From assembly GCA_020861095.1 (NCBI GenBank), contig JAJBTC010000212.1, forward strand, positions 1 through 64,000: a DNA stretch of 64,000 nt, read 5' to 3'. Source of the DNA: Bacteroides sp. (GTDB taxonomy: Bacteria; Bacteroidota; Bacteroidia; Bacteroidales; Bacteroidaceae). The notes under the pieces are model-generated. The model was not told the origin of the DNA and searched no databases. It saw only the letters and a list, made by a program, of their open reading frames with translations. The position numbers and the translations under genes are program-made. This document shows, in pieces, positions 9,275 to 29,522 of the stretch (position 1 is the first letter of the stretch; each line of letters starts with the position of its first letter).

Positions 9275-10612
9275 TCACAGCCAGCAATACATCGTCGTCT
9301 GTGAAGGTATTGCCACTGGACATGTTGTAGCGGGGGCACTGGCCAGACCGGTGATCAGGCCGTCGCTGATGGTCACCGCACCGTCCTCTTCCAGCATCTG
9401 CGCGCTGATCGTTTCCAGCTGTTTGTTACGTACCAGGTCGATGTACTTTTTCTGCGCGTCGTTGTCCGCGCTGAATACCCGGAACTTCACTTCGTTGGGC
9501 ATCACCTCTGTGGGCAGTGCTACGTTGTCGCACTTGAAGGCCTTGGTCTGATTCTCACTGTTTTTCGGATTATTCAGCTGTATGGTCGCGTTCCCGCTGC
9601 TGTAGGTGATAAAGAAATCAATGTCGTTTTTCACCGCTTCGTATTCACACGGTCCGTAGATATCTCCGTTGGACGCGTTGAAGAAATTGTCTGTCAGGTT
9701 CGGGTCCTGGCAGTAGGTGGTTACGTTCTCATAGAACAGAATGGTAGCCGCATCCGGCACATTTAGTTCAAAGGCTTCCGTGAGTACCAGGCGGGCATCT
9801 CCGTAATAGACCAAGGTGAGCGCCACCGTAGCAGACTCCCCGACCACCGGAACCAGCACGGTCAGGCGATCGTCTTCCCGATCCATGATATCACCGGCCA
9901 CGGTGCCAAACCACACCTGATCGATCAGCGTAAGATTTTCTCCGGTCAGTTCGATGAGTGTAGAGATATCGGCAGAAAGCGGATAGCTGGTCACTACCGG
10001 CTGCGGTTTGTTGATCCGGAATTTGTCGGAGGAGGCCACCTGCGCCTCACCGGAAGCGGTCTGATAGACTAAGTAAACAGTCACCTCGTCTTCTTCCACA
10101 TAGGGGACCTTTACCACCAGCTCGGTCTCCGTCTGGTAGACAACAGCAGCTTCGGCGGTTCCGAATAGTACGTGGGTAACTCCCTCCAGGTCAGTACCCT
10201 GGATCAGGATCTCCTCGTTCACCCTGCCCGTGGCGGGAAGCTGACTGAGGACAGGCAGGGCATAGGTCACCGTAAAGTGGCCTGTACTCTCCGCGCTCCC
10301 CAGGCTGTTCTGCACCACGATAGAGCCGGTCCTGGAGTGGGCATTTACCTTCACTACCAGTTCCGTGGAGCTGACGCGGTATTTCAGTGTGGCCAGTCCG
10401 CCCCCGATGTATACCGTATCTACATATTCGAGGTGTTCCCCTTCGATGGTAATCTCCGTGCCTACCTTGCCTTCGGCAGGGGAGAAGGAAGTGATCTGTG
10501 GAACGTCTCTCTCTGTCTGATTGAATGTAGGATCTTCGTTACATGCCGCCAACCCGGCAATAAGCATCACCGCCGGCGCGATCCGTCTGAGTATGTATGT
10601 GATTGTTTTCAT
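9275..10612 (-). CDS. IPT/TIG-domain surface lipoprotein of the alginate locus (3' end frameshifted)
   Basis: The predicted product is an outer-membrane glycan-binding lipoprotein: lipobox AGLAAC near residue 24, then three IPT/TIG beta-sandwich repeats (about residues 38-115, 120-200, 205-285) and a C-terminal domain of unknown fold. It is the last gene of the SusC-SusD-PL6 operon, 1 nt after the lyase stop, a usual place for a surface glycan-binding protein. As sequenced it ends at 9275 (445 aa, ending TMYCWL). Adding one C to the 5-C run (plus G5 at 9332-9336) restores a frame that runs on as PRYNMSSGNTF...DDDVLLAVKM and ends CYWQH at 9162. The shift therefore replaces the natural last ~57 residues. 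Confidence 0.82.
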   Translation of the reverse strand: MKTITYILRRIAPAVMLIAGLAACNEDPTFNQTERDVPQITSFSPAEGKVGTEITIEGEHLEYVDTVYIGGGLATLKYRVSSTELVVKVNAHSRTGSIVVQNSLGSAESTGHFTVTYALPVLSQLPATGRVNEEILIQGTDLEGVTHVLFGTAEAAVVYQTETELVVKVPYVEEDEVTVYLVYQTASGEAQVASSDKFRINKPQPVVTSYPLSADISTLIELTGENLTLIDQVWFGTVAGDIMDREDDRLTVLVPVVGESATVALTLVYYGDARLVLTEAFELNVPDAATILFYENVTTYCQDPNLTDNFFNASNGDIYGPCEYEAVKNDIDFFITYSSGNATIQLNNPKNSENQTKAFKCDNVALPTEVMPNEVKFRVFSADNDAQKKYIDLVRNKQLETISAQMLEEDGAVTISDGLITGLASAPATTCPVAIPSQTTMYCWL

Positions 10613-14616: not shown

Positions 14617-17600
14617 TTAAAAATGAATATCTATTCCGAAAGTAAAGGTACGCTGCATCGGGAATCCGCCACGCTGGTAGCCGTCGATCAGCGGCGAAGC
14701 ATACTGGCTCGAAGTGATCCGGGATTCGGGATTGACACCGCGGTATCCTTTGGCCATGTGTACATAGAGGTTCTGAGCGGAGGTATAGACCCGCAGGCCG
14801 TTGAGACCGATCTTGCGGCTCACTTTTTTAGGCAATGTATACCCCAGCACGATGTCACGTACCGACCAGTACGAACCGTCTTCGATCAGGTAGTCGGTCA
14901 GTTCCCACTTCATCCCTGTGGTCTGGTAGGGAGTTTTGCCGTCGCCCGGATTTTCCGCGTTGATCCAGCGGGTCATCACGTAGTTCTTGTTGTACTTCTT
15001 GGTCTCGTTGTAGTATCCGTCGCCGTTGAGCACATCCACACCCTGCACACCCTGCAACATGACAGTGAGGTCGAAGTTGCGGTAGCGGAATGTATTTGTC
15101 ATCCCCCAGGTGAAATCAGGAAACGGATCTCCCAGTGCCACGCGGTCGTCGTCGTCGATCACTCCGTTCTTATCGACATCCATTACCCGCAGACCACCCG
15201 GTTTGTCGTCGGCATGGCTGGCGTTGTTCGCGATCTCTTCGGTGCTGTTCCATACGCCGATGGTCTTGAATCCGTAGAACTGGATCGCCGGTTTTCCCAC
15301 CTGTGCCAGGTAGGCCTCGTTGCGCTCCCCGTAGTTGATCTGGCGCTCGTCGCCACCCAGATCCAGCAATCTGTTCTTGTTGGTAGCTAAGTTGAAAGAG
15401 GTGGTCCACTCAAACGATTGGGTACGGATGTTGTGTGTCGAAAGTTCAAATTCAAAACCCTTGTTGCGCACTTTACCGATGTTGTTCCAGAACTCCGTAT
15501 ACCCGGAAAAGGCTAAAGAAGATTGCTTGAAAAGCATATCTACCGTCTCCGAGTAGTAGTACTCCGCGGAGAGATTGACACGGTTGCCCCATACCGAGAT
15601 ATCGGCTCCGAAATTGTACTCGCTGGATTGTTCCCAGCCAATCGACTTATTGCCGAGTACCGAACTGGTATTGGCCAGGCCGGGAGTCACCGTACCGGTA
15701 CCCGGACCGAAAGAGTAGTTGGCCGAAAGGAGTTTGTCTGTATGCGCGTAATTCTCAATGTCGTTGTTCCCCGTCAGCCCCCAGCTGCCCCGCAACTTCA
15801 ACTGATCGATCCAGCGGATGTTCTTCATAAAGGGCTCTTCGGAGACACGCCATCCCAGGGATACGGAAGGAAACCATCCCCACCGGTTGTCGGGGCCGAA
15901 TTTGGAACTTCCGTCGGTACGCAGACTGGCAGAGACCAGGTATTTATCGTCGTAGGCATAGTTCACACGACCCAATACAGACAGCAGGGCTTCTTCTTCC
16001 TTGAGTGTATAGGTATCGCCTAAGCTCAGACCCGTAGCCGCATTGATCGTATGGATATAATCTGTCGGGAAATCGGTACCTACAATCCCTGCCGTGCGGG
16101 TATTGGATTTTTCGGCAGTGAACCCGGCCAGTACAGACAGGTCGTGCTTCTTCCGGATCACCGTATGGTAGTTCAGGGTATTCTCGGTCAGCAGATCCAC
16201 ATAGAGACGGTTGCGGTAGGTAGACTGGTTGGTATCTCCCTCTTTCTTGGTGCCTTTGTTCACATACTGCTCGTAATTCATATAGGAGTAGTAGAACCCG
16301 TTGGAGGTTTTGAACTCCAGCCCCTTAGCCAGTTTGATGGTGATGTACGACGAGGTTTGCAGACGGTAGTCTGTCTGGAAACGATTGTCGTTGTCGAGCA
16401 GCGAACGAGGATTGTGATTGGATGTATTCCACGGGCTGGCCGTGAATGTGGTACCGTCTTCCCGGGTATACTCCGTATTGTTGAAGTGTCCGCCGTGCGC
16501 GTATTCTCCTACCTCACGTCCGGTGAGTGCCGCGGTCTCTTCGGTGTGGCGCACCGGCAACCACGAGGGCGTACGGTAGAAGTCGATAAAGTTGGTAGAG
16601 GGGCGTTCGCGTCTGGAGTAGGTCGGATTGATATTGATCCCTACCGACACCCGTTTGTTGAGTTCGGCGTCGATCCTGGCACGCACTCCGAAACGGTCGT
16701 ACGTATTGTGCAGCATGATGCCTTCGTCGCCGGTGTAGTTGGCCGAAAGGAAGTATTTCACCTCCCGGGTGCCTCCGGATACATTGAACTGATAGTTCTG
16801 GAGGGTAGCCGTACGTATGCCTTCCTTCTGCCAGTCGGTCTCGTTGGCGATGTACTTCCATGCCTCTTCATTGGCAGAAAGGGTCTGTCCGTTAAGCGCC
16901 AGATCGCTCTCACGCAGGGTGATATACTCTCTGGCGGTCAGGATCGGATGCAGTTTGTACGCGTCTTTCACTCCCCAGCTGGCCTTGAAACTGTATTTGG
17001 GTTTCTTCACCTCTCCCTGTTTGGTGGTAATGAGGATCACCCCGTTGGCTCCGCGCGAACCATAGATCGCAGAGGAAGCGGCGTCTTTCAATACTTCGAT
17101 AGACTCTACATCACTCATATCTACAAATCCGAGTCCGTCTGCCACCGGGAATCCATCGACGACCACCAGCGGGTCTCCGCTGGCACTGATAGACCCCATA
17201 CCGCGTACACGGATTTGTGGAGCTACTCCGGCTTCGGTAGTGGTATTGGTGATCTGCACCCCGGCGATCTTGCCCTGAAGGGCCTGGTCCAGCCGGGATA
17301 CCGGGATGTCGGCCAACTCGTCTGTTTTCACTTTCGAGACCGAACCTGTGAGGTGAGATTTTTTCTGTACGCCGTAACCTACTACAACTACTTCGTCCAG
17401 GACTTTTACATCTTCCGCAAGTACGACGGAAATTACCGCTTGTTGTCCGGCTTTGATCTCCTGTGTGGTGTAGCCGATAAAAGAAAATACCAGTACATCG
17501 TCGGGACCGGAGATGCCGAGCGAATAATTTCCGTCAAGATCGGTAATGGTACCGTTGACCGAACCTTTCACAGCCACGGACACTCCGATCATCGGAAGGT

Positions 17601-17820
17601 GGTCGTTGTCTGTCACTTGTCCGGTGACGGTGCGCGACTGCGCCATCAACTGCCCCGTATGGCAGCACATGAAGATCAGAATGAGAAGTTGCCATTTGTG
17701 TGAAATAGCAGGGAATTTTTTTTCTCTTCCATAGATTAGACATTTAATTAAAAAACTATTGTATTGGATTTGTTTTGCCGTCTTTACCAATCCGAACAGT
17801 AATCGTGTTTTCCTTCTCAT
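14617..17820 (-). CDS. SusC/RagA TonB-dependent outer-membrane transporter (alginate locus)
   Basis: This TonB-dependent barrel should import alginate oligosaccharides. In order: signal segment KWQLLILIFMCCHTGQLMAQ, carboxypeptidase-D-like domain (VTGQVTDNDHLPMIGVSV), TonB-box region VLDEVVVVGYGVQKKSHLTG, plug domain (IRVRGMGSISASGDPLVVVDG), then a C-terminal beta-barrel ending FTFGIDIHF. The start is uncertain. The open frame allows ATG 17820, but a strong promoter (17833-17864) places the transcript start almost on it. ATG 17743 opens MSNLWKRKK, a typical charged leader, and joins this frame as KRKKFPAISHKWQ if one A is removed from the A8 run (17716-17723). The likely natural protein is then about 1041 aa starting at 17743. 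Confidence 0.92.
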   Translation of the reverse strand: MRRKTRLLFGLVKTAKQIQYNSFLIKCLIYGREKKFPAISHKWQLLILIFMCCHTGQLMAQSRTVTGQVTDNDHLPMIGVSVAVKGSVNGTITDLDGNYSLGISGPDDVLVFSFIGYTTQEIKAGQQAVISVVLAEDVKVLDEVVVVGYGVQKKSHLTGSVSKVKTDELADIPVSRLDQALQGKIAGVQITNTTTEAGVAPQIRVRGMGSISASGDPLVVVDGFPVADGLGFVDMSDVESIEVLKDAASSAIYGSRGANGVILITTKQGEVKKPKYSFKASWGVKDAYKLHPILTAREYITLRESDLALNGQTLSANEEAWKYIANETDWQKEGIRTATLQNYQFNVSGGTREVKYFLSANYTGDEGIMLHNTYDRFGVRARIDAELNKRVSVGININPTYSRRERPSTNFIDFYRTPSWLPVRHTEETAALTGREVGEYAHGGHFNNTEYTREDGTTFTASPWNTSNHNPRSLLDNDNRFQTDYRLQTSSYITIKLAKGLEFKTSNGFYYSYMNYEQYVNKGTKKEGDTNQSTYRNRLYVDLLTENTLNYHTVIRKKHDLSVLAGFTAEKSNTRTAGIVGTDFPTDYIHTINAATGLSLGDTYTLKEEEALLSVLGRVNYAYDDKYLVSASLRTDGSSKFGPDNRWGWFPSVSLGWRVSEEPFMKNIRWIDQLKLRGSWGLTGNNDIENYAHTDKLLSANYSFGPGTGTVTPGLANTSSVLGNKSIGWEQSSEYNFGADISVWGNRVNLSAEYYYSETVDMLFKQSSLAFSGYTEFWNNIGKVRNKGFEFELSTHNIRTQSFEWTTSFNLATNKNRLLDLGGDERQINYGERNEAYLAQVGKPAIQFYGFKTIGVWNSTEEIANNASHADDKPGGLRVMDVDKNGVIDDDDRVALGDPFPDFTWGMTNTFRYRNFDLTVMLQGVQGVDVLNGDGYYNETKKYNKNYVMTRWINAENPGDGKTPYQTTGMKWELTDYLIEDGSYWSVRDIVLGYTLPKKVSRKIGLNGLRVYTSAQNLYVHMAKGYRGVNPESRITSSQYASPLIDGYQRGGFPMQRTFTFGIDIHF

Positions 17821-17823
17821 GAA

Positions 17824-17864
17824 TTGGTCTGCCAAAAATAGACATATTTTATTATATAATCAAA
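17824..17864 (-). promoter_or_regulatory. Promoter and operator of the SusC-SusD-PL6-TIG operon
   Basis: On the minus strand TTTG (17864-17861), exactly 20 nt, then TATTTTTG (17840-17833). The palindrome TTGGCAGACCAA (17835-17824) overlaps the end of the -7 box. The 19-nt string TATTTTTGGCAGACCAATT is identical in the divergent lyase promoter. The position suggests repression, most simply by the GntR regulator at 28806. The rest of 17865-18105 is AT-rich without other signals. Confidence 0.8.
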
Positions 17865-18105
17865 ATAAAAACAGAGAAAAAACGGGCTTTTAACACATGA
17901 TAAAAGATTCCTTAACAGTCTCTCACCCATACACTGAATTTCATATAATAAAGTACGGATACAGTGTTTATTGTAAATAAAAACTTATATATTAGCTATT
18001 TAAGATTCAGCAAAAACAAAAATCAGACAGAAATCCTCCTTCCCCAGGAAATACCGCACGAGCGGGATATTTTTTATCCTCCTCCTGCAATATTCATCCG
18101 ATTTA

Positions 18106-18146
18106 TTTGGGTGATTAAAAATTATACTGTATTTTTGGCAGACCAA
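18106..18146 (+). promoter_or_regulatory. Promoter and operator of the PL17-KdgF-MFS-SDR operon
   Basis: TTTG (18106-18109), 20 nt, then TATTTTTG (18130-18137), with the operator TTGGCAGACCAA at 18135-18146 overlapping the -7 box. It has the same architecture and the same 19-nt core as the divergent SusC promoter about 290 bp away. It leaves a 5' leader of about 45 nt. Confidence 0.8.
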
Positions 18147-18187
18147 TTAACAACAAAAGAAGACACACTCAAAAAATCATCCATCAC

Positions 18188-20353
18188 ATGAAAAGCATAA
18201 GATCGTTTGTTTTTACTCTTCTTCTGTTCCTGTCTCTGGGCCTGTGTGCTCAACAAACGGAACACCCGTGTCTGATCCTGACCAAACAGGTGGTGGAACA
18301 GATCCGTCCCAACCTGGGAACTCTTCCTGTGTTTGATAACACTGTACAAGAGATGCAACGCAAGATCGACCGGATCATGGATCTGCCCATCGATCTGCCT
18401 CAGCCCAAAGATGCTGGAGGAGGCTATTCGCACGAACAGCACAAACGCAACTATACCGCTATCTATCAGGCAGGTGTACTTTACCAGTTGAAGGGAGACA
18501 AGAAGTATGCGGAGTATGTGAAACAGATGCTGTTTGCCTATGCGGAACTCTATCCTACACTGCCGCTGCATCCGGTGCAGAAATCCAACTACCGGGGGCG
18601 TCTCTTCTGGCAGGGACTCAACGAAAGTGTATGGCTGGTAAATGTATCCCAGGGATATGACTGCGTATATAATTACCTGACAGAAAAGGAGCGCGAGCAG
18701 ATCGAAACGGGTCTCTTCCGGCCTATGATCCGATTTTTCCGGGAAGAAAACAGAAAGACGTTTGCACGCATACACAACCACGGCACATGGGCAGTGGCTG
18801 CTGTAGGAATGATCTCTTACGTAATGGGTGACACAGATATGGTGGAACAATCCTTATATGGCCCTGACAAGGATGGCAAAGGTGGCTTCATGAAGCAGAT
18901 CGATCAGCTGTTCTCACCGGACGGATACTTTGAGGAAGGCCCTTACTACCAGCGGTATTCCCTGCAGCCCTTCCTGATGTTTGCACAGGCAGTGGATAAC
19001 AACGAACCGGAAAGAAAAATATTTGAATACAAAGACGGTGTATTGCTGAAAGCAGTAACTACCCTGTTGCAACTGACCGAGCAAAACGGACAGTTCTTCC
19101 ACCTCAACGACGCGCTGGATAAGACCTGGCATACCAATGAACTGGCCTGGGGGGTAGATATCGCCTATGCAAAGACAGGTAATAAACAACTGCTCAGTAT
19201 CGCCCGTGAACAGGGCAGCGTAGTAATCAGCGAAGCGGGATGGAAAACGGCACAGGACATGGCCCTGGCCGAGCCGTTTGTGCACCGGACACTGATCGTA
19301 CGCGACGGTCCCGACGGAGACCAGGGAGGCATCGGTGTATTGCGCGACGGAAAAGGAAAAGACGAAGTGGCTGTAGTGATGAAATATACTTCTCACGGTA
19401 TGGGACACGGGCATTTTGATAAACTGTCTGTCAGCTATTACGACAACGACCGGGAGATCCTGCAGGACTATGGTGCCGCGCGTTTCCTAAATATAGAGCC
19501 CAAGAACGGAGGACACTACCTGCCCGAAAACGATAGTTTCTGCAAACATACCATCAGTCACAACACCGTAACGGTGGATGGAAAAAGCCATTTCAACTAC
19601 GACATGAAGCTCTCGTCGGAACACGCTCCGGATTTTTATGGATTCGTAGATACGGACGAGGTAAAGATGGTGAGTGCCAAAGACAAATATGCAGTGGCAG
19701 GTGTGGAAATGCACCGTACAGTATGGCTGCTCCGGCATCCGCTGTTCGATCGCCCGGTGACGGTGGATATATTCCGTATAACTTCCGCAGAGAAACACCG
19801 GTATGACCTGCCCTTCTATTTCCTCGGACATCTGATGCGTACCAACTATCCGTACGAAGCTTTCACTACACAACGTGCGTTGCTGGGAGAAAGCAATGGC
19901 TATCAGCACCTGTGGGTAGAGGCCAAAGGAAAAGCGGAAAATAACCTGATCGCTACGACTTTCCTCAATGGGAATCGCTTCTATACGATCTCTTCCTTAG
20001 CAGACGACCAGACAGAAGTCTACCTCAACCGCATCGGTGGTACGGACCCGGACTTCAACCTGCGCCATGAGCCGGCGGTGATGCTTCGCCGGGAAGAGGC
20101 CGCAAACCACACCTTTGTGAATGTCATCGAGATACACGGAGAGTACAACCCACGCATGGAGTACACGCTGGATCCGTATGCAACGGTGCAGTCGATCCGT
20201 CTGGTGAGTGATACGGCAGACTATACAGTGGCAGAGATCGGTACCCAAAGCGGGAAATCGTTGCGGATATACCTGAGCAACAACAACAGCGACGCGGAAG
20301 CTACGCATACATTCGAAGGATATTCGTGGAAGGGTGTATGTAGCATACAATAA
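18188..20353 (+). CDS. PL17 oligo-alginate lyase (heparinase II/III-like)
   Basis: This enzyme probably releases unsaturated uronate monomers from alginate oligosaccharides by exolytic beta-elimination in the periplasm. The 721-residue protein has a signal peptide (to about residue 21), an alpha-toroid N-terminal half with NHGTW (H198) and EGPYYQRY (Y253/Y254), and a C-terminal heparinase II/III-like beta-sandwich starting near residue 390 (HGMGHGHFDKLSVSYY). H198 and Y254 have the same spacing as the catalytic His/Tyr pair known in PL17 enzymes. It is first in a five-gene rightward run whose members complete monomer catabolism. PL15 is a less likely family. Confidence 0.9.
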   Translation: MKSIRSFVFTLLLFLSLGLCAQQTEHPCLILTKQVVEQIRPNLGTLPVFDNTVQEMQRKIDRIMDLPIDLPQPKDAGGGYSHEQHKRNYTAIYQAGVLYQLKGDKKYAEYVKQMLFAYAELYPTLPLHPVQKSNYRGRLFWQGLNESVWLVNVSQGYDCVYNYLTEKEREQIETGLFRPMIRFFREENRKTFARIHNHGTWAVAAVGMISYVMGDTDMVEQSLYGPDKDGKGGFMKQIDQLFSPDGYFEEGPYYQRYSLQPFLMFAQAVDNNEPERKIFEYKDGVLLKAVTTLLQLTEQNGQFFHLNDALDKTWHTNELAWGVDIAYAKTGNKQLLSIAREQGSVVISEAGWKTAQDMALAEPFVHRTLIVRDGPDGDQGGIGVLRDGKGKDEVAVVMKYTSHGMGHGHFDKLSVSYYDNDREILQDYGAARFLNIEPKNGGHYLPENDSFCKHTISHNTVTVDGKSHFNYDMKLSSEHAPDFYGFVDTDEVKMVSAKDKYAVAGVEMHRTVWLLRHPLFDRPVTVDIFRITSAEKHRYDLPFYFLGHLMRTNYPYEAFTTQRALLGESNGYQHLWVEAKGKAENNLIATTFLNGNRFYTISSLADDQTEVYLNRIGGTDPDFNLRHEPAVMLRREEAANHTFVNVIEIHGEYNPRMEYTLDPYATVQSIRLVSDTADYTVAEIGTQSGKSLRIYLSNNNSDAEATHTFEGYSWKGVCSIQ

Positions 20354-20387
20354 ACAAAACAGTTATTCAATCAACAAATAAAGTCAG

Positions 20388-20729
20388 ATGAAAACACGTA
20401 GTGCAAATTTTCAGATCGAAAGTGAAATGGCCTGGGAAAAGGTCGGAGAAGGAATCGAAAGACAGATCATGGGATACGACGGCCAGCTAATGCTGGTCAA
20501 AGTGAAATTCGAAAAGGGTGCGGTGGGTATGGCTCACGAGCATTATCACTCGCAGGCTACTTTCATTGTAAGCGGTGTGTTTGAGTTCCATACCGATGGA
20601 GAAAAACGTGTAGTGAGCGCCGGAGATGGCATCTACTTTGCCCCGGATGTCCTGCATGGTTGCACCTGCCTGGAACCGGGCGTACTGATCGATACATTCA
20701 GCCCCATGCGCGCGGACTTCTTAAAGTAA
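20388..20729 (+). CDS. kdgF: KdgF-like cupin, uronate ring-opening protein
   Basis: KdgF proteins speed the linearisation of unsaturated monouronates from alginate or pectin to the open-chain keto form. The 113-residue single cupin has candidate metal ligands H50, H52, Q56 and H90 in HEHYHSQ and DVLHG, the layout of KdgF. It has no signal peptide, so it should act in the cytoplasm. It lies 34 nt after the PL17 lyase and 7 nt before the transporter, within one operon. Confidence 0.88.
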   Translation: MKTRSANFQIESEMAWEKVGEGIERQIMGYDGQLMLVKVKFEKGAVGMAHEHYHSQATFIVSGVFEFHTDGEKRVVSAGDGIYFAPDVLHGCTCLEPGVLIDTFSPMRADFLK

Positions 20730-20736
20730 GGAAGGT

Positions 20737-22206
20737 ATGAAAATCAAAGGACTCAGGTGGTGGATCATCGGACTGATTATGCTGATTACCATCATCAATT
20801 ATCTCGACCGCGGTACACTCAACTACATGTGGGTGACCAACATCGAGTACACACTGACAGATGCCCTACATCCGGAACGGAAGGAGAACCAGGCGGTATA
20901 TGTAGCCGAGACCGGAAGTTACGAACTGTGCAACACAGCCGGAAAAGAGAAACGGGTGGATGCCGCACGCATCACCGTGAAAGAGAAAGACGGCTCTACC
21001 CTGATCGTCCATAAAGAAGGGATCGCGTATGACCTGGGGCTGATCTCTACGGAGCTTTCCGCGGAAGAGGCGGCCAGACAGGCCAAAGATATGCTGGGAA
21101 CGATCACGATCTTCTTTATGATCGCCTACGGTATCAGCCAGCTGGTATCGGGCAAGATGTATGACAGGATCGGTACCCGCAAAGGTTTTCTGGTATCTGT
21201 ACTTCTCTGGGGTACTGCCGACGCATTGACTTCGCTGTCACGCGGACTGGTATCACTCACGGGATTCCGTATGATGCTGGGACTGGGAGAAGCAGGCCCC
21301 TGGCCGGGAACGACCAAGAGCAACGCGGAATGGTTCCCGCAAAAAGAACGGGCACTTGCCCAGGGACTTTTCGGAGCGGCTGCTTCGCTGGGGTCCATCT
21401 TCGCACCGGTCATTATCCTGATGCTTTACATTGCTTTCGGCTGGAAGGTAACCTTTGTGATAGTCGGCGGATTGGGCCTGCTGTGGCTGATCCCGTGGCT
21501 GATCCTGAACAAGAAAGGACCGAAAGAGCATCCGTGGATCACAGAGGAGGAAAGGTCGTATATCCTCAACGGACAACCGGAGATCCAAATGACTAACGAC
21601 CGGGGTAAATCGTGGGGAGAACTGCTTGCCAACCGCAAGAACTGGTCGGTGATCCTCGGACGATTCTTCTTAGACCCCATCTGGTGGATGTTTGTAACCT
21701 ACCTGCCCCTCTATCTGGCAGATGTATTCAATCTGAACATCAAAGAGGTGGCGTTCTCGGCATGGGTGCCTTATGTAGGCGCCATGATCGGAAGTATCTC
21801 AGGCGGATGGTTCTCAGGCTATCTGATCCGCAACGGTAAGACCGTGGATTATGCCCGTAAAGCGGCCATGATCCTGGGAGGTATCATCATCATCCCGTCT
21901 ATTATCGCAGCGGTATTCTCCTCTTCGGTAGGGATGGCAGTGGTATTTATGGCTTTCGTTCTGGGTGGGTTCCAGTTTGTGATGACCAATATACAGACTA
22001 TCCCCAGTGACCTGCATTCGGGTAAATCGGTAGGTTCGCTGGCCGGGCTGGGTGGAGCCTCTGCCGTACTGGGTACGATCCTGGCTATTCTTTTTGCCCA
22101 GTACATCACCAGTTGGGGATTGCTCTTCTCGCTGCTGGCAGCTCTGGTGCCCCTGTCACTGGGCTCCATATTCCTGACCATAGGAAAGATTGAACCAATC
22201 AAATAG
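20737..22206 (+). CDS. MFS uronate transporter with a large loop after TM1
   Basis: A 489-residue major facilitator of the ACS/hexuronate (ExuT-like) type, expected to carry unsaturated or keto-uronate from alginate across the inner membrane. TM1 (WWIIGLIMLITIINYLDRGTLNY) contains the NYLDR motif of that family. Unusually, about 85 hydrophilic residues (roughly 35-120: ALHPERKENQ...TELSAEEAARQ) separate TM1 from TM2, where most relatives have a short loop. The loop should face the periplasm. The remaining eleven segments look normal, with GKMYDRIGTRK between TM2 and TM3. Its operon position between KdgF and the reductase supports the role. Confidence 0.87.
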   Translation: MKIKGLRWWIIGLIMLITIINYLDRGTLNYMWVTNIEYTLTDALHPERKENQAVYVAETGSYELCNTAGKEKRVDAARITVKEKDGSTLIVHKEGIAYDLGLISTELSAEEAARQAKDMLGTITIFFMIAYGISQLVSGKMYDRIGTRKGFLVSVLLWGTADALTSLSRGLVSLTGFRMMLGLGEAGPWPGTTKSNAEWFPQKERALAQGLFGAAASLGSIFAPVIILMLYIAFGWKVTFVIVGGLGLLWLIPWLILNKKGPKEHPWITEEERSYILNGQPEIQMTNDRGKSWGELLANRKNWSVILGRFFLDPIWWMFVTYLPLYLADVFNLNIKEVAFSAWVPYVGAMIGSISGGWFSGYLIRNGKTVDYARKAAMILGGIIIIPSIIAAVFSSSVGMAVVFMAFVLGGFQFVMTNIQTIPSDLHSGKSVGSLAGLGGASAVLGTILAILFAQYITSWGLLFSLLAALVPLSLGSIFLTIGKIEPIK

Positions 22207-22238
22207 ATATCGAACTTATTTTTTTGAAATAACAAGAC

Positions 22239-22991
22239 ATGAAATTAAAAGGAAAAGTAGCCGTTGTAACCGGCGGTGCCCGCGATCTGGGCCGTGCTAT
22301 CTCTGTGAAACTTGCACAGGAAGGCGCTAAAGTAGTAGTAAACTATTTCGATAATCCGGAAGATGCGCAGGAGACGCTGAGGCTGATCCGTGAAGCAGGG
22401 TCGGACGGGATCATTGTACAGGGTGACATGACCAAAGCGGCGGATGTAAAAAGACTGTTCGACGGTGCCGTAGAGGCTTTCGGAGAACGTATCGATACAC
22501 TGGTGAACGTAGTAGGTGGCATTGTAGGCCGTAAATTAGTGACCGAACAGGATGAGGTGTGGTACGACTTCCTGATGGATGTGAACATGCGCAGTGTATT
22601 CCTGTGTACCCGTGAGGCGGTTCCTTACATGGGTGAAGGCTCTGCCATTGTGAACTTCTCTTCACAGGCCGCGCGTGACGGCGGAGGTCCGGGTGCATCT
22701 ATGTATGCCACTGCAAAAGGTGCGGTAATGACCTACACCCGTTCGATGGCCAAAGAACTTGGTCCCAAAGGGATCCGCATCAATTCGCTGGCTCCGGGTA
22801 CCATCGCCACCTCTTTCCACGATCGTTTCAACACACCGGAAAACCGGGAGCGCATGAAGGGTACGTACGCGCTTCGCCGCGAAGGAGAAGCGCGTGAAGT
22901 GGCGGATCTGGTAGCTTACCTGGCTTCGGACGAGTCGTCTTACGTGACCGGTACGAATATTGACATTAACGGGGGATCACTCTTCTCCTGA
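22239..22991 (+). CDS. SDR oxidoreductase, likely DEH reductase
   Basis: A 250-residue classical short-chain dehydrogenase with cofactor motif TGGARDLG (11-18), NVVGG (90-94), Ser 141/142 and Y156-x3-K160. In alginate loci an SDR reduces 4-deoxy-L-erythro-5-hexoseulose uronate (DEH) to 2-keto-3-deoxygluconate, and this gene sits in that place after PL17, KdgF and the transporter. NADH versus NADPH preference is not clear from sequence. No KDG kinase or KDPG aldolase follows; those steps must be encoded elsewhere. Confidence 0.88.
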   Translation: MKLKGKVAVVTGGARDLGRAISVKLAQEGAKVVVNYFDNPEDAQETLRLIREAGSDGIIVQGDMTKAADVKRLFDGAVEAFGERIDTLVNVVGGIVGRKLVTEQDEVWYDFLMDVNMRSVFLCTREAVPYMGEGSAIVNFSSQAARDGGGPGASMYATAKGAVMTYTRSMAKELGPKGIRINSLAPGTIATSFHDRFNTPENRERMKGTYALRREGEAREVADLVAYLASDESSYVTGTNIDINGGSLFS

Positions 22992-23100
22992 TATTTTATG
23001 CCTATGTGACAACGAGGCTGTCTCCAAATAGCTTTTACTTCTTTAGCATCTGATCGTTTTCAACTTCTTGAAGTAAATAAGGCTGTTTGTAAGTTCTGTA

Positions 23101-23362
23101 AGGACGATACATTCCAGCCCAGGGTAAGGCCAAGCGTAGGGTACCGGAGCGGGCCGCCACCCTGGGTTTACGACGTACATAGATCAATGGGTCCTGAACC
23201 AACGGTCGACGCAGTCAAAGGACGATACACATACATGTGGTATATACCTACCTATATGTGCCGTACCTACGGCACTGGGTTGGATGTGTGCCTCGCACCC
23301 CAGGGTGGCGTCGGGTTTCGTTTCACTTCCTCCTCCTTACCCTGGGCTGGAATGTGCCGTCC
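23101..23362. repeat. Structured inverted-repeat element after the SDR gene
   Basis: A perfect 21-bp inverted repeat (acattccagcccagggtaagg at 23109-23129; complement at 23335-23355) encloses a second one (ccaccctggg 23157-23166 with cccagggtgg 23299-23308). GGACG/CGTCC-like words lie just outside. The centre carries a gaaccaacggtcgacgcagtcaa-type module at 23197-23219. It looks like a non-autonomous repeat, with no ORF. It splits the SDR gene from the SGNH gene (gap 22992-23438), so their co-transcription is uncertain. Confidence 0.75.
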
Positions 23363-23438
23363 CTGCAGGACTCAGGAATATCCTTATTTGCTATTTTGAG
23401 ACAGCTTCGTCTTTGTAACCTTTCCTATTCTTCCTTTT

Positions 23439-24893
23439 ATGAAACACACTTTGATACTTTTTCTCTGTCTCTGTTTTCTTCCCGCGCAGGGACAAGAGGT
23501 CTGCTTTCACAACCGTCCGGACAATTTTCAACTCTATCCCCGTAACGGAGCGGGATACGGACAGGTAGAGATCAGTGGAGAAATACGTTCGGGCAACTAC
23601 CCAACGATCTATATCCATCTGGATCGGGAAAACGAGCGTGTAGCCACTTATCCGGTGGCTATACAAAACAAAGCGGACAAAAAGATATTCCGTACCCTTA
23701 TCCCCCTGAAAGCAGAGCTTGCCAATTATACCTTTTCTTACCAGCTTCATCCGGACTCTACAGCGGTGTTGCTGGCAGAACAGGTGGTATCGGGAGATGT
23801 CTTCCTGATCGCCGGACAGTCCAACTCGGTTGCCTCCGGCAATTCCGTATGCAAAGAGGAGATCCATCCTTTTTTCCGCACATTGGGTACGACGCGTAAG
23901 AAAGAGGGGTATCTGCCGCAGGATACCATCTGGGGCATAGCCAATTCACAGGGCTGCTCGTATGGAAAGCCCTTTTTCAACGGCTACTCGGCACATGTAC
24001 TTCACAGTCTGGTAGGGCAACACCAACAGGTACCTACCGCGATCATTAACATGGGGGTAGGTGGTACACGGATCAGTGAGAATCTGCCTTCGGAAGAAGA
24101 TCCCATGGATCTGAACACGATCTATGGAAGCGGACTCTACCGGACCCGACAGGCGGGTCTCGACCAGGCGGTACGGGCACTGATCTGGCTGCAGGGAGAA
24201 TCGAACCAGAAAACGGGATACGACCGGTATATGGAAGACTTTGCCCGGCTGTATGCGGGCTGGAAAAGGGATTATCCGAACCTGGAAAAAATATACATGT
24301 CACAGATCCATACGGGGTGTGGAGAGAATGAACATGGCGCGGAACTCCGGGAAGCCCAACGCCGCATCGGGCAACTCTATCCGGATATCGATCTGATCGC
24401 TAATGTGGGACTTCCTCTCCGGCCGGATGACTGCCACTATACACGGGAAGCACACGATACACTCTGGCATCGCTTCTACAACCTGATCGCCCGGGATTTC
24501 TACAGGCAGCCGGGGGAGTATCTGGCATCGCCGGATGTGACAGAGGTATGCTATACAGACCCGGAGTGTAGCACGTTGTGTATCACCTTTGACCAACCGG
24601 TGGTATGGCCGGAGGAGATCAGTGCGGAGATGCTTGCGTACCTTTTCCTCAATGAGAAGAAGGAGTATATAAAAGTGGAAGAGGTATATACCTTGCCGGA
24701 AGCCTCTGATTCGATCTTCTTAAAGCTACAGCAAGCGAGATCGGTACAGGCACTGACCTACGGACCTGACGGATTTGTGAAAGATAAGGAGGGAAACCTG
24801 ATACGCTATGCAGGGCCCTGGATCACCAATCTGAAGGGGATACCTGCACTGACCTTTGACCAGGTGAAAGTGAAGGGATTTACGATGTACTGA
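23439..24893 (+). CDS. SGNH / sialate O-acetylesterase-family esterase
   Basis: The 484-residue exported protein (signal peptide to about residue 19) has a SASA-type SGNH hydrolase core: GQSNSVASGN with the nucleophile Ser, NMGVGGTRI, WLQGESN, and a late DDCHYT Asp/His pair. An N-terminal beta domain (20-120) and a C-terminal beta segment (370-484) flank it. It probably removes acetyl esters from a glycan. In an alginate locus the natural substrate would be O-acetylated (bacterial) alginate, an inference from context only. The last codons (GFTMY and TGA) lie inside an intergenic repeat module (24877-24903), so the 3' end may have been reshaped by it. Confidence 0.8.
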   Translation: MKHTLILFLCLCFLPAQGQEVCFHNRPDNFQLYPRNGAGYGQVEISGEIRSGNYPTIYIHLDRENERVATYPVAIQNKADKKIFRTLIPLKAELANYTFSYQLHPDSTAVLLAEQVVSGDVFLIAGQSNSVASGNSVCKEEIHPFFRTLGTTRKKEGYLPQDTIWGIANSQGCSYGKPFFNGYSAHVLHSLVGQHQQVPTAIINMGVGGTRISENLPSEEDPMDLNTIYGSGLYRTRQAGLDQAVRALIWLQGESNQKTGYDRYMEDFARLYAGWKRDYPNLEKIYMSQIHTGCGENEHGAELREAQRRIGQLYPDIDLIANVGLPLRPDDCHYTREAHDTLWHRFYNLIARDFYRQPGEYLASPDVTEVCYTDPECSTLCITFDQPVVWPEEISAEMLAYLFLNEKKEYIKVEEVYTLPEASDSIFLKLQQARSVQALTYGPDGFVKDKEGNLIRYAGPWITNLKGIPALTFDQVKVKGFTMY

Positions 24894-25162
24894 TGTACGA
24901 TTTGTTCTTTCGTCACAACTATTATGGGATTCTTTACGCTGAGAAATATGGAAAGATAAATGCCCTGACGACCGGTAACATTTTCCTAATAAAGACGCAA
25001 AGAAATTTAAGATGTACGATGTGAGATCTCCCGGTATAGTAACTGTTCTGACGGGGTTTTATCTTTCTCTTTTGTTCGTATGTTCGTTTGTCTGTTTATA
25101 TCCATTTATCAGACATACGAACAAAAGAAAAATGTATATCGGAAGACGCAAATATGCGTCTC
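24877..25162. repeat. Repeat modules after the SGNH gene and a short palindrome variant
   Basis: Module words gatttacgatgtac overlap the SGNH stop (24877-24903) and recur near 25009-25022. At 25144-25161 there is agacgcaaatatgcgtct, a variant of the 19-bp near-palindrome with an AT centre, followed by the usual tctctaca outer end. The remainder of 24894-25236 holds only the convergent hairpin listed separately. Confidence 0.7.
25069..25127. terminator. Hairpin between convergent genes, possible bidirectional terminator
   Basis: Perfect 15-bp arms cttttgttcgtatgt (25069-25083) and its complement (25113-25127) enclose a 29-nt loop that begins and ends with gtctg/cagac-like words. It lies between the convergent SGNH and second PL6 genes. 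The stem is AT-rich with a run of A on the right, so termination strength is uncertain. Confidence 0.5.
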
Positions 25163-25236
25163 TACAATAGATTATTACCCATCGTTAAAGGATTTGTCTT
25201 TCCAATTGTACCTCCTCAATCAAATCCTTCCGTCTT

Positions 25237-26745
25237 TCATTGCGGGTGAACGCCTGGATCAGCCTCTATCCAGCTCACTCCCGTACTTTTCCTGTCAGGA
25301 ACAGATCGCAAAGAATGGCCTGCAACACTGCAACTCACCCCAGTTTCCGGCCTCCTTTCTCTACCCGGCATATCTTTTCTTACCTCTTCGTTGCAAGGAA
25401 CCGGAGAGGTATAAAGTTCGCTATCAGTTGCAGGTTTGTACAGGCCAAACTCTTCCGTGGGCTTGTTCATCATAGCAGAAGAGACTTTCCGGAAACCCTT
25501 TTTCACCGACTTATTGCAACCGACGAATGTACCGCGATGATATACATTGCCGCGAAAATCAACCTGTTGGCGATCGTCCCTGATCCGGATCACCTCCCGG
25601 TCTGCAGAAGAAGTATTATAAATAAAATTGCACTCTACTATACTCTCTATAGGTGGTTCGGGCTGATCGGGAGCATGCCCTACCGCCACATCCAATGCGA
25701 TGAGACAATCCACGAATGTATTGTATGCGATATAGGCCCCTTTTACCTGGGAATACCGGTTGAGGATACGGTTTTCATTGCCTTTGGTCAGGGAAAGTGC
25801 CGAACGGTAAGATTCGCCGGCAGTGCGGTAAAAATAGTTATGGGTCACCCGGTGCCCCTCTCCCATCACGCGCACACCACCCGACTCCCCGGTAGAGGTG
25901 ACCGCACCGTTGGCCAGGAATATATTTCCATCTACTACGCAATGGTGTCCGTGACGCAGGCAAAGGGTACCGACACACTCCAGGAAAAGGTTGTTCAGGT
26001 AGTAATTGCCACAGGATTTGTTGGAGATCACTTCGATCTCCCCGTTGCACCGCTCAAACAGGTTACTCTCTATCCGGCAATCCGCTGTCTTCAGAGAAGT
26101 GCGGCTGTCTCCCACACGGATGGTTTCCTGTCCGTTGAGTTCTTTTCCGGTCAACGGATCCGTTTGCGACACCCGCGGGCCGAAGTAGTTGTGATCGATC
26201 CGGTGCCTGCCCTGCTCCTCTTCATCGAGCCAGACCACCAGCGTAACCCCCATATTCTTCTTATCATACACCGTACAATGATCTACCCGGTGGTGGTGAC
26301 CACGGAGACTGATCCACTTCACATCATCCTGCGGATCGGGCGAGTTATAATCTGCAATGCGGGTTTCACTTAACCGGCAAAAGGAGCTCCCGCGGGCAAA
26401 TTCCACCACCGCCTTACTAGGATGCGCTGTCTGGCTTGAACTGAAATCCAGTCCCGATACGTACAGGTATTCTCCATCTATCACCAACAGCGAATGACCC
26501 CGCATACATACCTGTCCCGGGGTCTCTGCTATCAACCATACAGGACTATCGGACGTGCCCTTTCCGCGGAAATGTATTTGCTGATCCTTCCACTCTCCAT
26601 TGCGAAGGATCACCGTATCTCCGGCCACAAAAGTACGCCCGTTGACCTCACGGGCTTCAGAAACGGGATAAATCTTTGCTGAAAGCCACAGCGGACAAAG
26701 TAATCCACACAGCCAGAAAATATTCTTCAGGGTATTTCGTTTCAT
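25237..26745 (-). CDS. PL6 alginate lyase, single-domain
   Basis: A second PL6 beta-helix lyase, 502 residues with signal peptide (to about residue 23). The catalytic block is CNGEIEVISNKS with K243 and LCLRHGH with R264, again 21 residues apart. It lacks the second domain of the PL6 at 10614, so the two enzymes probably differ in mode or block preference. It is last in a leftward three-gene operon. Its ATG overlaps the stop of the upstream hydrolase (ATGA), implying coupled translation. Confidence 0.9.
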   Translation of the reverse strand: MKRNTLKNIFWLCGLLCPLWLSAKIYPVSEAREVNGRTFVAGDTVILRNGEWKDQQIHFRGKGTSDSPVWLIAETPGQVCMRGHSLLVIDGEYLYVSGLDFSSSQTAHPSKAVVEFARGSSFCRLSETRIADYNSPDPQDDVKWISLRGHHHRVDHCTVYDKKNMGVTLVVWLDEEEQGRHRIDHNYFGPRVSQTDPLTGKELNGQETIRVGDSRTSLKTADCRIESNLFERCNGEIEVISNKSCGNYYLNNLFLECVGTLCLRHGHHCVVDGNIFLANGAVTSTGESGGVRVMGEGHRVTHNYFYRTAGESYRSALSLTKGNENRILNRYSQVKGAYIAYNTFVDCLIALDVAVGHAPDQPEPPIESIVECNFIYNTSSADREVIRIRDDRQQVDFRGNVYHRGTFVGCNKSVKKGFRKVSSAMMNKPTEEFGLYKPATDSELYTSPVPCNEEVRKDMPGRERRPETGVSCSVAGHSLRSVPDRKSTGVSWIEADPGVHPQ

Positions 26746-27629
26746 TCTATGACTCCTGTTCTACGTAAAAAGGCCACCATGGCCCGGTTGATCTCTCCAT
26801 TGATCTCCGTACCGAATTTTCCGTGTCCACCCTGCGGAATGGTCATAAATTCCGTTTCCACACCGGCTTTCAGAAGGGCATCGTGCAGCCAGACCGATTG
26901 CTGATAAGGCACAATATCATCCGCATCGCCATGTACAATGAATGTAGGAGGAGTATCCGCATTTACGTAACTGATGGGAGAAACAGAAGCCATAAACTCC
27001 CTGTCACCGATCCGGTCACCGATCCAGCGTACTGCCGAACGGTAGGGCTTTTCACCTACGGAGAAATCTACCATATCGGCTATGCCATACTTATCCAATA
27101 CGGCAGCGATACGTATCTCCCCGATCCCTTCGTAGTCCCGGTCGAACCGATGATCGTTGCCCAGATAAGCACCCATCATAGCCAGATGGCCGCCGGCAGA
27201 GCCTCCCATCAAGATGATACGCTGGGGATCGATATGATAGGTGGCAGCATTTCTGAGCAGGAAGATCAGAGCAGAACGCACATCTTCGATGGCTGCCGGA
27301 GCAGGCGCCACATCTACCAGACGGTATTCGATATTGGCTACCGCACAACCGGCTTTGAAGAAATTGGAAAACCCACGTTGCTTCTCTTTGTTGCCGTGAT
27401 TCCATCCGCCACCAAATATATTAATAATGATAGGAGTGGGCTTGTCGGTACGGGGAGGCAGGTAAAGATCCATCTTTCCCACCCACTCCCCTTCCGGGGT
27501 GAAAGGAACATCCAGGTGATAGGTAAACCCTTGCGGGATCACTACGCCATAAGGCGTTTCCTGACTTTTTTGCGCAGCCACCGAGAGGGTCAGACACAGT
27601 GCGAAAATAAATAAGATTTGTTTGCTCAT
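26742..27629 (-). CDS. Secreted alpha/beta hydrolase (acetylesterase-like)
   Basis: Start MSKQILFIFALCLTLSVAAQ gives 295 residues with a signal peptide. The fold is of the BD-FAE/esterase-lipase type: oxyanion motif FGGGWNHGN, nucleophile in MGGSAGGHLA, Asp in HGDADDIVP and His in QGGHGKFG. It probably removes acetyl or similar small acyl groups. It sits between a dehydrogenase and a PL6 lyase under the alginate-locus operator, so a role in trimming substituted alginate is likely but unproven. The frame extends upstream to 27707, but that overlaps the dehydrogenase and lacks a signal sequence. Confidence 0.82.
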   Translation of the reverse strand: MSKQILFIFALCLTLSVAAQKSQETPYGVVIPQGFTYHLDVPFTPEGEWVGKMDLYLPPRTDKPTPIIINIFGGGWNHGNKEKQRGFSNFFKAGCAVANIEYRLVDVAPAPAAIEDVRSALIFLLRNAATYHIDPQRIILMGGSAGGHLAMMGAYLGNDHRFDRDYEGIGEIRIAAVLDKYGIADMVDFSVGEKPYRSAVRWIGDRIGDREFMASVSPISYVNADTPPTFIVHGDADDIVPYQQSVWLHDALLKAGVETEFMTIPQGGHGKFGTEINGEINRAMVAFLRRTGVIE

Positions 27630-27648
27630 GGTTATGTATGTATTTGTT

Positions 27649-28605
27649 TCAGACGATGGATAATACTTCCTCTCCGGCAAAATAGCGCCGGATGTTTTCG
27701 GCAGCATAGTGCGTCATGGCTATCCGGGCCTCCATAGTACCTGTTCCATTGTGTGGAGAGAGTACCACATTGTCCAGGGATAGTAATTGCGAAGGCACCT
27801 GCGGTTCGTGTTCAAAGACATCCAGCCCTGCTCCCCAGATCCATCCTTCGGTGAGTGCCCGGATCAATGCCTCTTCATCCACCAGGGCTCCCCTGGCGGT
27901 ATTGATAAAGATAGCCTCTTTCTTCATCATCCGTAGCTGGGCTTCACCGATCAGATGATGGGTAGAGGTGCTTGAGGGAACGTGCAGTGAGATCACATCG
28001 GCAGTATGCAGCAATTCTTCCTGCGAAAGATAATGTACGTGTAACCTCTCCTCTTCTTCCCGGCTTATCCGGTGACGATTGCGATAGACAACCTTCATAC
28101 CGAAAGCAAGTGCCCGGCGGGCTACGGCTCTACCGATCCGGCCCAGTCCCAGAATACCCAGTCTTTTGCCGGAGAGGCTCTGCCCCAGATTGCCCATGGT
28201 ACAGATATGCACAGATCCCTGACTACGCATTTTCCGATCCATCTCCCCGATCCTCCGGGCAACTGCCATCATGAGAGCAAAAGTGTGCTCAGCCGTGGGT
28301 TCCACGACTGCTTCAGGCGAATTGGTCACCCATATTCCTTTCTTTCGGGCATAGGCCACATCTATATGGTCATACCCGGCACCGAAGTTGGCAATGATCT
28401 TCAATGCAGGAGCACGATCGATTACCTGCCGTGTTACCTTGAATGTATATGTAGGCAACAGGGCTTCACAACAACCCAACTTCACCCAATCTAATTCAGT
28501 TATTATCTGATCGTTTACCAGATAATCCACATCAAATCCGGAAGCCACAGGAACCAATCCTTCGCGGGGAAGGGTTTGTGTAAGGAGTAACTTTTTCATA
28601 TCCAT
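27649..28605 (-). CDS. D-2-hydroxyacid dehydrogenase
   Basis: A 318-residue NAD(P)-dependent dehydrogenase of the phosphoglycerate/hydroxypyruvate reductase family. The nucleotide motif is GILGLGRIGRAVARR; the catalytic triad residues are Arg in NTARGALVDEEAL, Glu in DVFEHEP and His in LSPHNGTGT. It is cytoplasmic. It is first in the operon with the hydrolase and PL6, under the shared operator. The substrate is unknown; DEH and KDG are both 2-keto acids, so an alternative reduction in alginate catabolism is possible. Start chosen at MDMKKLLLTQTL (28605; 28599 also possible), because the longer frame to 28683 would cross the promoter. Confidence 0.85.
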   Translation of the reverse strand: MDMKKLLLTQTLPREGLVPVASGFDVDYLVNDQIITELDWVKLGCCEALLPTYTFKVTRQVIDRAPALKIIANFGAGYDHIDVAYARKKGIWVTNSPEAVVEPTAEHTFALMMAVARRIGEMDRKMRSQGSVHICTMGNLGQSLSGKRLGILGLGRIGRAVARRALAFGMKVVYRNRHRISREEEERLHVHYLSQEELLHTADVISLHVPSSTSTHHLIGEAQLRMMKKEAIFINTARGALVDEEALIRALTEGWIWGAGLDVFEHEPQVPSQLLSLDNVVLSPHNGTGTMEARIAMTHYAAENIRRYFAGEEVLSIV

Positions 28606-28652
28606 AGACTGTTGAAAGAAAGAGAGGGAATTGCACTCTCGTTTTATGTCGA

Positions 28653-28684
28653 CAAACATAGATAAAATAAATTGGTAGACCAAA
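28653..28684 (-). promoter_or_regulatory. Promoter and operator of the dehydrogenase-hydrolase-PL6 operon
   Basis: On the minus strand TTTG (28684-28681), 20 nt, then TATGTTTG (28660-28653). The palindrome TTGGTCTACCAA (28683-28672; TTGGTAGACCAA on the plus strand) overlaps the -33 element. It is the third copy of the locus operator, here placed at -33 and not at -7, and still consistent with repression. Confidence 0.78.
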
Positions 28685-28805: not shown

Positions 28806-29522
28806 ATGAAAACAGATCACATATTAGAAAGTCTGAGCAAAGTAGAGGAAAATCCCACAGAAAGTATCATCAGACAAATAAGAATGTTGTTGAATACCGG
28901 ACAGTTGAAACCGGGTGACCGCCTGCCGGCAGAAAGAAAGATGGCCGAAAGGTTTGGTGTAGGGCGTACGCATGTGCGGGACGCATTGAAAAAACTGGAA
29001 TTTTACAACATCCTGAAGACGTTGCCGCAGAGCGGGTCGGTGGTAGCCGGCATGGAGATGACAGCACTGGACGGACTGATCAGTGATGTATTGCAGATGG
29101 ACAGTCACGATTTCTATTCTCTGGTTGAGATGCGTGCCATCCTGGAAACCAATGCTGCCCGCCTGTGTGCGATACGCCGGACGGAGGAAGATCTGAGAGA
29201 GATCGAGAAAGCGATGAACAACTACATCGCCAAAGTAGAGGAGAATGGTTCGGCCATGGAAGAAGACCTGTATTTCCATCGCACCATCGCGCAGGGTTCT
29301 AAAAACATGGTCCTGAAATCGATGATGATGATCATCACACCGGATATCATGACCAACTACAACAAATTCAATGTGTGCAAGACGAATTTTGATATTCCGA
29401 TCAGTGAGCACCGCCTGCTGTTTGAATACATCAAAAACCACGATGCCAACGGGGCAACGAATATCATGAGCCAGCACCTGACGGGAGTGCTTTCTTTCGC
29501 GAAGACGCAGACCTTGTTTTAA
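28806..29522 (+). CDS. GntR-family (FadR/FCD) transcriptional regulator
   Basis: A 238-residue repressor-type regulator. Residues about 15-85 form a GntR winged helix (LKPGDRLPAERKMAERFGVG followed by RTHVRDALKKLE); residues about 95-230 form an all-helical FCD ligand domain (YSLVEMRAILETNAARLCA). FCD-GntR proteins often sense sugar acids such as hexuronates or KDG. It adjoins the alginate locus, and three promoters of that locus carry TTGGnAGACCAA, close to the TTGGTnnACCAA shape bound by related UxuR/ExuR-type proteins. It is the natural candidate for the locus regulator, with KDG or DEH as possible inducer (inference). Confidence 0.9.
   Translation: MKTDHILESLSKVEENPTESIIRQIRMLLNTGQLKPGDRLPAERKMAERFGVGRTHVRDALKKLEFYNILKTLPQSGSVVAGMEMTALDGLISDVLQMDSHDFYSLVEMRAILETNAARLCAIRRTEEDLREIEKAMNNYIAKVEENGSAMEEDLYFHRTIAQGSKNMVLKSMMMIITPDIMTNYNKFNVCKTNFDIPISEHRLLFEYIKNHDANGATNIMSQHLTGVLSFAKTQTLF

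Follow-up and report, generated by a model that had tools for sequence, protein, structure and literature searches.

An alginate locus of a Bacteroides sp. (NCBI GenBank assembly GCA_020861095.1, contig JAJBTC010000212.1, positions 1 to 64,000 of the forward strand; this whole stretch of 64,000 nucleotides is called the window) carries one palindrome on the promoters of three operons. We hypothesize, at a probability of roughly 0.87, that the three palindromes (TTGGTNNACCAA, with variable outer letters) are the operators of the GntR protein encoded at 28806-29522, which would be an AusR-type repressor of the three operons released by a product of alginate. A word conserved at the loci of GntR homologues, corresponding sites in Bacteroides clarus, and a sole match between this genome and a Zobellia protein together indicate that the locus is very probably an AusR-type repressor regulon. 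The sites, their registers, their conservation and their linkage to the GntR gene are read directly from DNA, and from them we infer binding, repression and the effector.

The observation of three shared palindromes on promoters is confirmed. An earlier note on this DNA, made from the letters alone, had placed the 12-mer TTGGNAGACCAA at 17824-17835 (-), 18135-18146 (+) and 28672-28683 (+), and we found it at all three; these are its three matches in the window, compared with a mean of 0.04 in shuffled sequence and no case of three or more in 100 shuffles. The proposed overlap with promoters is equally real, involving the -7 box for SusC and PL17 and the -33 box for the dehydrogenase operon. 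Operators and promoters are as follows.

17824..17835 (-): operator 1, reading TTGGCAGACCAA in the direction of SusC; fused to that gene's promoter at the -7 box
18135..18146 (+): operator 2, reading TTGGCAGACCAA; fused to the PL17 promoter, again at the -7 box
28672..28683 (-): operator 3, reading TTGGTCTACCAA in the direction of the dehydrogenase; fused to that gene's promoter at the -33 TTTG
17833..17864 (-): predicted promoter TTTG-N20-TATTTTTG of the SusC-SusD-PL6-TIG operon, from a pattern scan
18106..18137 (+): predicted promoter TTTG-N20-TATTTTTG of the operon of PL17, KdgF, a major facilitator superfamily (MFS) transporter and a short-chain dehydrogenase/reductase (SDR), from a pattern scan
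28653..28684 (-): predicted promoter TTTG-N20-TATGTTTG of the dehydrogenase-esterase-PL6 operon, from a pattern scan

Six strings of the form TTTG-N19-21-TAnnTTTG occur in the window, where block shuffling gives a mean of 0.53 and a maximum of 4. Three of the six are those carrying TTGGNAGACCAA, all with a 20-nt spacer. The first two sites do share an identical 19-nt string, TATTTTTGGCAGACCAATT, whose initial letters are the promoter -7 box. Each of these sites in the divergent SusC-PL17 region has one imperfect arm (TTGGC), and both arms of operator 3 match TTGGT-N2-ACCAA.

The genome holding the window (4,271,921 bases in 227 contigs, 94.8% complete) contains four exact copies of TTGGNAGACCAA, against three for the pattern read backwards as a control; the fourth, C133:5065, lies within a coding open reading frame (ORF) that by eye is ABC transporter-like. 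In simulation, three of four random points share some 10.9-kb stretch with p ~8e-5. A value of 7e-8 for the clustering of the copies was discarded as too small, because it is valid solely for a stretch fixed beforehand and this one was named after the matches were known. Looser TTGGNNNNCCAA is not enriched, either genome-wide (19 places, control 45) or in the window with one mismatch (21 against 29.2 expected), so the operator signal is local and positional. The -7-fused form TAnnTTTGGNNNNCCAA occurs twice in the genome without mismatch, at the SusC and PL17 promoters; with one mismatch allowed it gives 47 matches, fewer than the 102 of the control, and therefore only the perfect form is telling.

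The GntR protein and its probable kinship to AusR

The GntR gene sits among alginate genes, with PL17, two PL6-type genes, a cupin, SDR, MFS, SusC and SusD adjoining. Its product belongs to the FadR subfamily, as the earlier note had proposed, with both GntR and FCD domains (PF00392, 61.7 against 27 bits; PF07729, 77.4 against 24.3 bits), and the sequence evidence supports it as the likely binder. The same note had likened the sites to those of UxuR/ExuR-type proteins. In Escherichia coli the UxuR/ExuR operator is palindromic and even, a 2-nt centre separating TTGGT/ACCAA arms as in the window sites, and in shape the likeness stands; as to protein membership it fails. UxuR and ExuR are of the same GntR-FCD family, but the window protein reaches only 58.3 bits on the UxuR equivalog of NCBIfam (cut-off 442) and 48.2 on ExuR (cut-off 396), below the 103 bits it scores on each of the NanR and LldR profiles, which are likewise under their cut-offs. 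Relatives by sequence with solved structures are GntR-family regulators such as 7c7e, PdhR and NanR.

The nearest characterized relative that we found is the AusR-type protein of Zobellia. The AusR regulon of Zobellia galactanivorans was reportedly described by Dudek et al. in 2020. Other papers describe the AusR protein of this species as a repressor of the GntR family that controls most of the alginate genes; it acts at operators that are single, double or triple, and degradation intermediates release it (PMC8286568, PMC7874173). It belongs to Zobellia locus I, which contains PL17, according to a passage in PMC8073546. Protein P0123, a Z. galactanivorans homologue that we take to be AusR from species and locus, is 41% identical to the window GntR over 227 columns. 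Searched in the window's genome, it has a sole match at E 1e-3, namely the window GntR (E 1.1e-52). In the reverse search, made in a genome assigned by inference to Z. uliginosa (G382), the window GntR finds one match at E 1e-30, the protein encoded in the alginate locus of that species, L058. P0123 is 98% identical to this protein. In L058 the GntR gene stands together with matches to PL17, KdgF, SDR, SusC, SusD and MFS, and 13-nt-stepped sites lie upstream of SusC with one site before GntR.

We propose the following mechanism. Without alginate, a GntR dimer would occupy each operator, covering the -7 box at SusC and PL17 and the -33 box at the dehydrogenase operon. RNA polymerase bearing the primary sigma factor of Bacteroidetes would be barred from all three operons by the bound dimers. 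A breakdown product of alginate, which might be 4-deoxy-L-erythro-5-hexoseulose uronate (DEH), 2-keto-3-deoxygluconate (KDG) or an unsaturated uronate, would bind the FCD domain, whereupon the repressor would leave and the locus would be transcribed. It is improbable that the GntR protein instead activates at these sites, or both activates and represses, although operator 3 lies on the -33 element and not on a -7 box, and some FadR-family members do act both ways. All three sites share letters with the elements contacted by sigma, so a bound dimer should exclude polymerase. The characterized relative AusR is moreover a repressor, as far as the cited passages describe it (PMC8286568, PMC7874173). 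Whether the repressor would also control its own gene is uncertain, because TAACTTTG before the GntR gene (28775-28782, 91 nt from operator 3) has no TTTG 19-21 nt upstream.

The proposed operator across Bacteroidia

Relatives were found with the GntR protein as query, independently of the motif. Among named genomes, two loci came to light, in B. clarus (L008; protein 72% identical) and a Rikenellaceae metagenome-assembled genome (L009; 71%). Searches of 201, 395 and 393 genomes, which are partly overlapping samples, at thresholds of 1e-20, 1e-30 and 1e-40 matched 3, 13 and 12 genomes, counts that contain the window's own each time. The 26 other matches were fetched with up to ~10 kb per side, less at contig ends, and with L008 and L009 make up 28 non-window loci, among which L050/L051 and L053/L054 are each pairs from the same genus. 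ORFs were called mechanically; their starts being uncertain, the initial 60 bases of every ORF were treated as non-coding DNA.

The word conserved across these loci is (T/C)TGGTNNACCA(A/G). Among the 1024 five-letter half-sites with a 2-nt gap, TTGGT-N2-ACCAA ranks first in non-coding DNA, with 29 sites in 18 of the 28 loci; the next half-site not made of A and T only is CTGGT, with 5. For four-letter half-sites with a 4-nt gap, TTGG (44 sites, 24 loci) is exceeded by TTTT and AAAA only. TGGT-N2-ACCA occurs at 58 sites in 24 of the 28 loci, where the eight other spacers from 0 to 8 yield four sites altogether. The outermost arm base is T in 81 of 116 and C in 33 of 116, and strict sites of either form number 73 in 27 loci. 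An AGA core, which the earlier note took as the defining feature, was rejected because the central bases vary among relatives while TGGT/ACCA, and thus TGGTNNACCA, is what they conserve.

These counts also bear on a simpler account, in which the repeated string amounts to three good sigma-ABfr promoters and the palindrome comes from chance and shared promoter letters. In its favor, the -7 and the -33 element both contain TTTG, which makes the TTGG arm in part a promoter sequence, and the 19-nt identity takes in the -7 box. The CCAA arm, however, lies outside both elements, its spacing is kept across loci with other spacers almost absent, and the two perfect -7-fused forms in 4.27 Mb are both at this locus. 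We consider this account scarcely credible and already disfavored.

An alginate marker (a match to PL17, PL6 or KdgF) is present in 24 of the 28 loci, 23 of which have a strict site; in 21 a strict site falls between 400 nt upstream of the GntR start and 60 nt inside it. Of the four marker-free loci, two on contigs of 4 and 7 kb (L061, L063) have sites near GntR and two (L059, L067) have none. L067 (G685:C26) is a second GntR homologue, of 47% identity, in the genome that also holds L066; it possesses neither alginate marker nor nearby operator, and is possibly a paralogue with another target.

In B. clarus, sites at L008:3594, 3913 and 9840 occupy the divergent SusC-PL17 region and the position before the dehydrogenase, as in the window. 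The first two are -7-fused, with TTTG 19 and 20 nt upstream, in the register of operators 1 and 2; the third is -33-fused, with TAnnTTTG 20 nt further on, and its own letters fit the -7 register too. When the SusC-PL17 regions are aligned, 21 of 24 site bases are identical, compared with 230 of 458 window positions overall.

Several observations weigh against our proposal. The 28 loci are related, so their motif counts are not independent. Three marker loci (L052, L065 and L070) are without a strict site close to the GntR start, and L070 has no strict site at all. In two of the three window sites, one symmetric T/A pair of the consensus is missing; all three B. clarus sites deviate at this pair, and exact TTGGTNNACCAA is absent from the whole B. 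clarus genome. Exact counts of TTGGTNNACCAA in 11 relatives' genomes are above the reversed control in six and below it in five, and with such mixed numbers the argument rests on position, not number. Further sites had been predicted before the genes for KDG kinase and 2-keto-3-deoxy-6-phosphogluconate (KDPG) aldolase, both on C71; none was found upstream of either at up to one mismatch. The kinase-like gene, which precedes the aldolase gene, was named by eye.

Finally, a hybrid two-component regulator with an AraC-type domain is encoded in the window as well (45415-49494). The palindrome might belong to another regulator, of which this is the only candidate seen in the window, the nearness of the GntR gene being incidental. 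The hybrid regulator has kinase, receiver and AraC-type DNA-binding domains. Its place is ~16 kb away from the GntR gene, though, next to another SusC/SusD locus that includes GH3 genes, and hybrid two-component regulators usually serve their own neighbors. The motif, by contrast, tracks GntR homologues over the 28 loci of several families, mostly near the GntR gene, and close to L067, a homologue that lacks alginate genes, the site is absent. Control by another regulator thus appears quite improbable.

The operators of the proposed repressor also hold a preferred position relative to promoters. Among 84 site-orientations with a downstream gene start, the start of TAnnTTTG relative to the operator peaks at an offset of -5 (20 cases in 17 loci), with secondary offsets of -18 (11 cases) and -31 (3) as 13-nt steps predict. 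Offsets of +22/+23 account for six cases in five loci, and every other offset for one or two. Against a background of 5.2% (TAnnT before 176 of 3387 intergenic TTG), 20 of 84 has p ~9e-9, a value overstated because the loci are related. Of 53 arrays, 20 are -7-fused, 5 are -33-fused and 23 fit either register, and 30 fit neither under the strict consensus.

Where the starts of two sites are less than 60 nt apart, the step is 13 nt in 13 cases, 15 in two, and 16, 17, 23, 27 and 43 in one each. Pairs and triples stepped by 13 nt are confined to nine loci of a single family that includes Zobellia (L050-L058, family f6). Outside it, close tandem operators in L046, L047, L049 and L064 step by 15, 16 or 17 nt, a difference that should alter how two bound dimers are angled to each other. 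One further genome has a second TTGGTTGACCAA pair, 15 nt apart, ~20 kb from its GntR locus (G378:C5:180845-180871), which suggests a second controlled operon there. The window contributes two of 22 fused sites; among the 22, the fused arm has a fifth base other than T in 10, and the distal arm has a base other than A at the matching place in 2 (Fisher p 0.016, uncorrected and from related loci).

It is about an even bet that AusR-type operators throughout Bacteroidia favor two registers of fusion with the promoter, at the TTG of the -7 TAnnTTTG or with TTTG as the -33 element, that the Zobellia family adds downstream copies in 13-nt steps, and that repressor and sigma factor read the same letters, the -7 arm being bent by the needs of the promoter. 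With only 23 of 53 arrays fitting either register strictly, the fusion is a tendency, not a law. We found no account of it in the literature passages on AusR and Bacteroides alginate loci, a search that did not extend to the primary AusR paper, and searches with operator strings returned no relevant paper by title.

The alginate locus and the extent of its probable regulon

Genes were annotated by Pfam and NCBIfam profile scans of window ORFs; 22 further window ORFs, part of the remainder, were scanned as well. Unless stated otherwise, the names below come from Pfam.

9275..10612 (-): TIG-domain protein
10614..13025 (-): PL6-type lyase from the first ATG, scanned as 10614-13100; the Pfam match is Chondroitinase B, which we take to denote PL6
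13025..14515 (-): SusD-like lipoprotein
14617..17820 (-): SusC-like TonB-dependent receptor, start codon uncertain
18188..20353 (+): PL17-type oligoalginate lyase; also NCBIfam NF042990, E 8e-230 but under the cut-off (765 against 1400 bits)
20388..20729 (+): cupin, KdgF-like by position and by analogy with Bacteroides eggerthii
20737..22206 (+): MFS transporter
22239..22991 (+): SDR oxidoreductase, likely the DEH reductase; B. clarus has the same gene order
23439 (+): SASA esterase, between the SDR gene and the second PL6; Pfam/NCBIfam
25237..26745 (-): second PL6-type lyase
26742..27707 (-): BD-FAE-type esterase
27649..28605 (-): D-2-hydroxyacid dehydrogenase leading the third operon, scanned as 27649-28683, start codon read from sequence
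28806..29522 (+): FadR-type GntR regulator (GntR + FCD), AusR homologue, proposed operator binder
45415..47073 (+): propeller part of the hybrid two-component regulator
47083..49494 (+): Y_Y_Y-kinase-receiver-AraC part of the same regulator, a second ORF

The first in-frame ATG of SusC (17820) starts 12 bases past the -7 box and leaves almost no leader. A second plausible start nearby, ATG GAA GAG with eight consecutive A after it, does not share the SusC frame (17700-17835(-)), and in B. clarus SusC starts ~155 bases past its operator. An 18-base string, CCAACGGTCGACGCAGTC, occurring in the window within 23072-23392 and at 1853-1870, has 76 places in the genome at up to one mismatch, against none for its reversed control. 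One copy, at 23199, falls in an element that separates the SDR and SASA genes and is bounded by 58-nt inverted repeats of 81% complementarity. These elements are a dispersed repeat family, perhaps a miniature inverted-repeat transposable element.

Including its GntR gene, the gene set resembles the alginate polysaccharide utilization locus (PUL) of B. eggerthii as portrayed in the passages seen of PMC11381880. From such passages, the PULs of B. eggerthii and B. clarus share GntR, a glyoxylate-reductase-like dehydrogenase, SDR, MFS, KdgF, PL17 and SusC (PMC11381880, PMC5966431); the word operator is absent from the main text of both papers. Nothing separates the SDR and dehydrogenase genes in B. 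clarus, whereas the window has two esterases and a PL6 there. The B. clarus stretch compared ended at SusC, with the genes beyond outside it.

As far as sites were examined, the regulon in this genome appears confined to the locus. Its predicted coverage of the structural operons, except possibly the esterase, is supported by sequence. The SASA esterase gene is preceded by a gap of 447 nt that contains no site even with one mismatch allowed. The genome-wide scan proposed in the earlier note turned up one extra exact 12-mer, that at C133:5065 inside an ORF, and no site before the genes for KDG kinase and KDPG aldolase; overall, the interpretation given in that note is partly supported. A wide regulon was rejected as far as 12 of the 16 non-window TTGGNNNNCCAA places go, eight being in mechanical ORFs and four outside, one of which overlaps a dispersed repeat. 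Of the 47 matches to the -7-fused form at up to one mismatch, 28 loci were read for position, two rows belong to other loci and 17 are without a locus; the 28 include one non-window site with a -33 TTTG, which is inside ORFs (L076). Flavobacterial loci contain ORFs of ~340 and 222 amino acids close to GntR, similar to the kinase and aldolase in size.

An AusR-type alginate switch has already been described in a marine bacterium, and the window regulon very probably adds a further case. As seen in Z. uliginosa, a FadR-type GntR gene lies within the alginate locus of Zobellia too, among matches to PL17, KdgF, SDR, MFS, SusC and SusD, and there too TGGTNNACCA sites stand before SusC and before GntR. 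The Zobellia regulon differs in that its family has 13-nt-stepped arrays where the window has single operators, and the proteins are 41% identical; in the window's genome, KDG kinase and KDPG aldolase are encoded elsewhere without a site, and the gene order is that of gut Bacteroides.

The least ordinary part of the finding is the fusion of operator and promoter in two registers. Operator and promoter sharing letters would give a simple account of how a polysaccharide locus is kept silent, and TGGTNNACCA in promoter position may serve as a word for predicting alginate regulons. If the reading proposed here is correct, the repressor circuit of an alginate locus in a marine flavobacterium would extend to a distant part of Bacteroidia, including B. 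clarus of the human gut.

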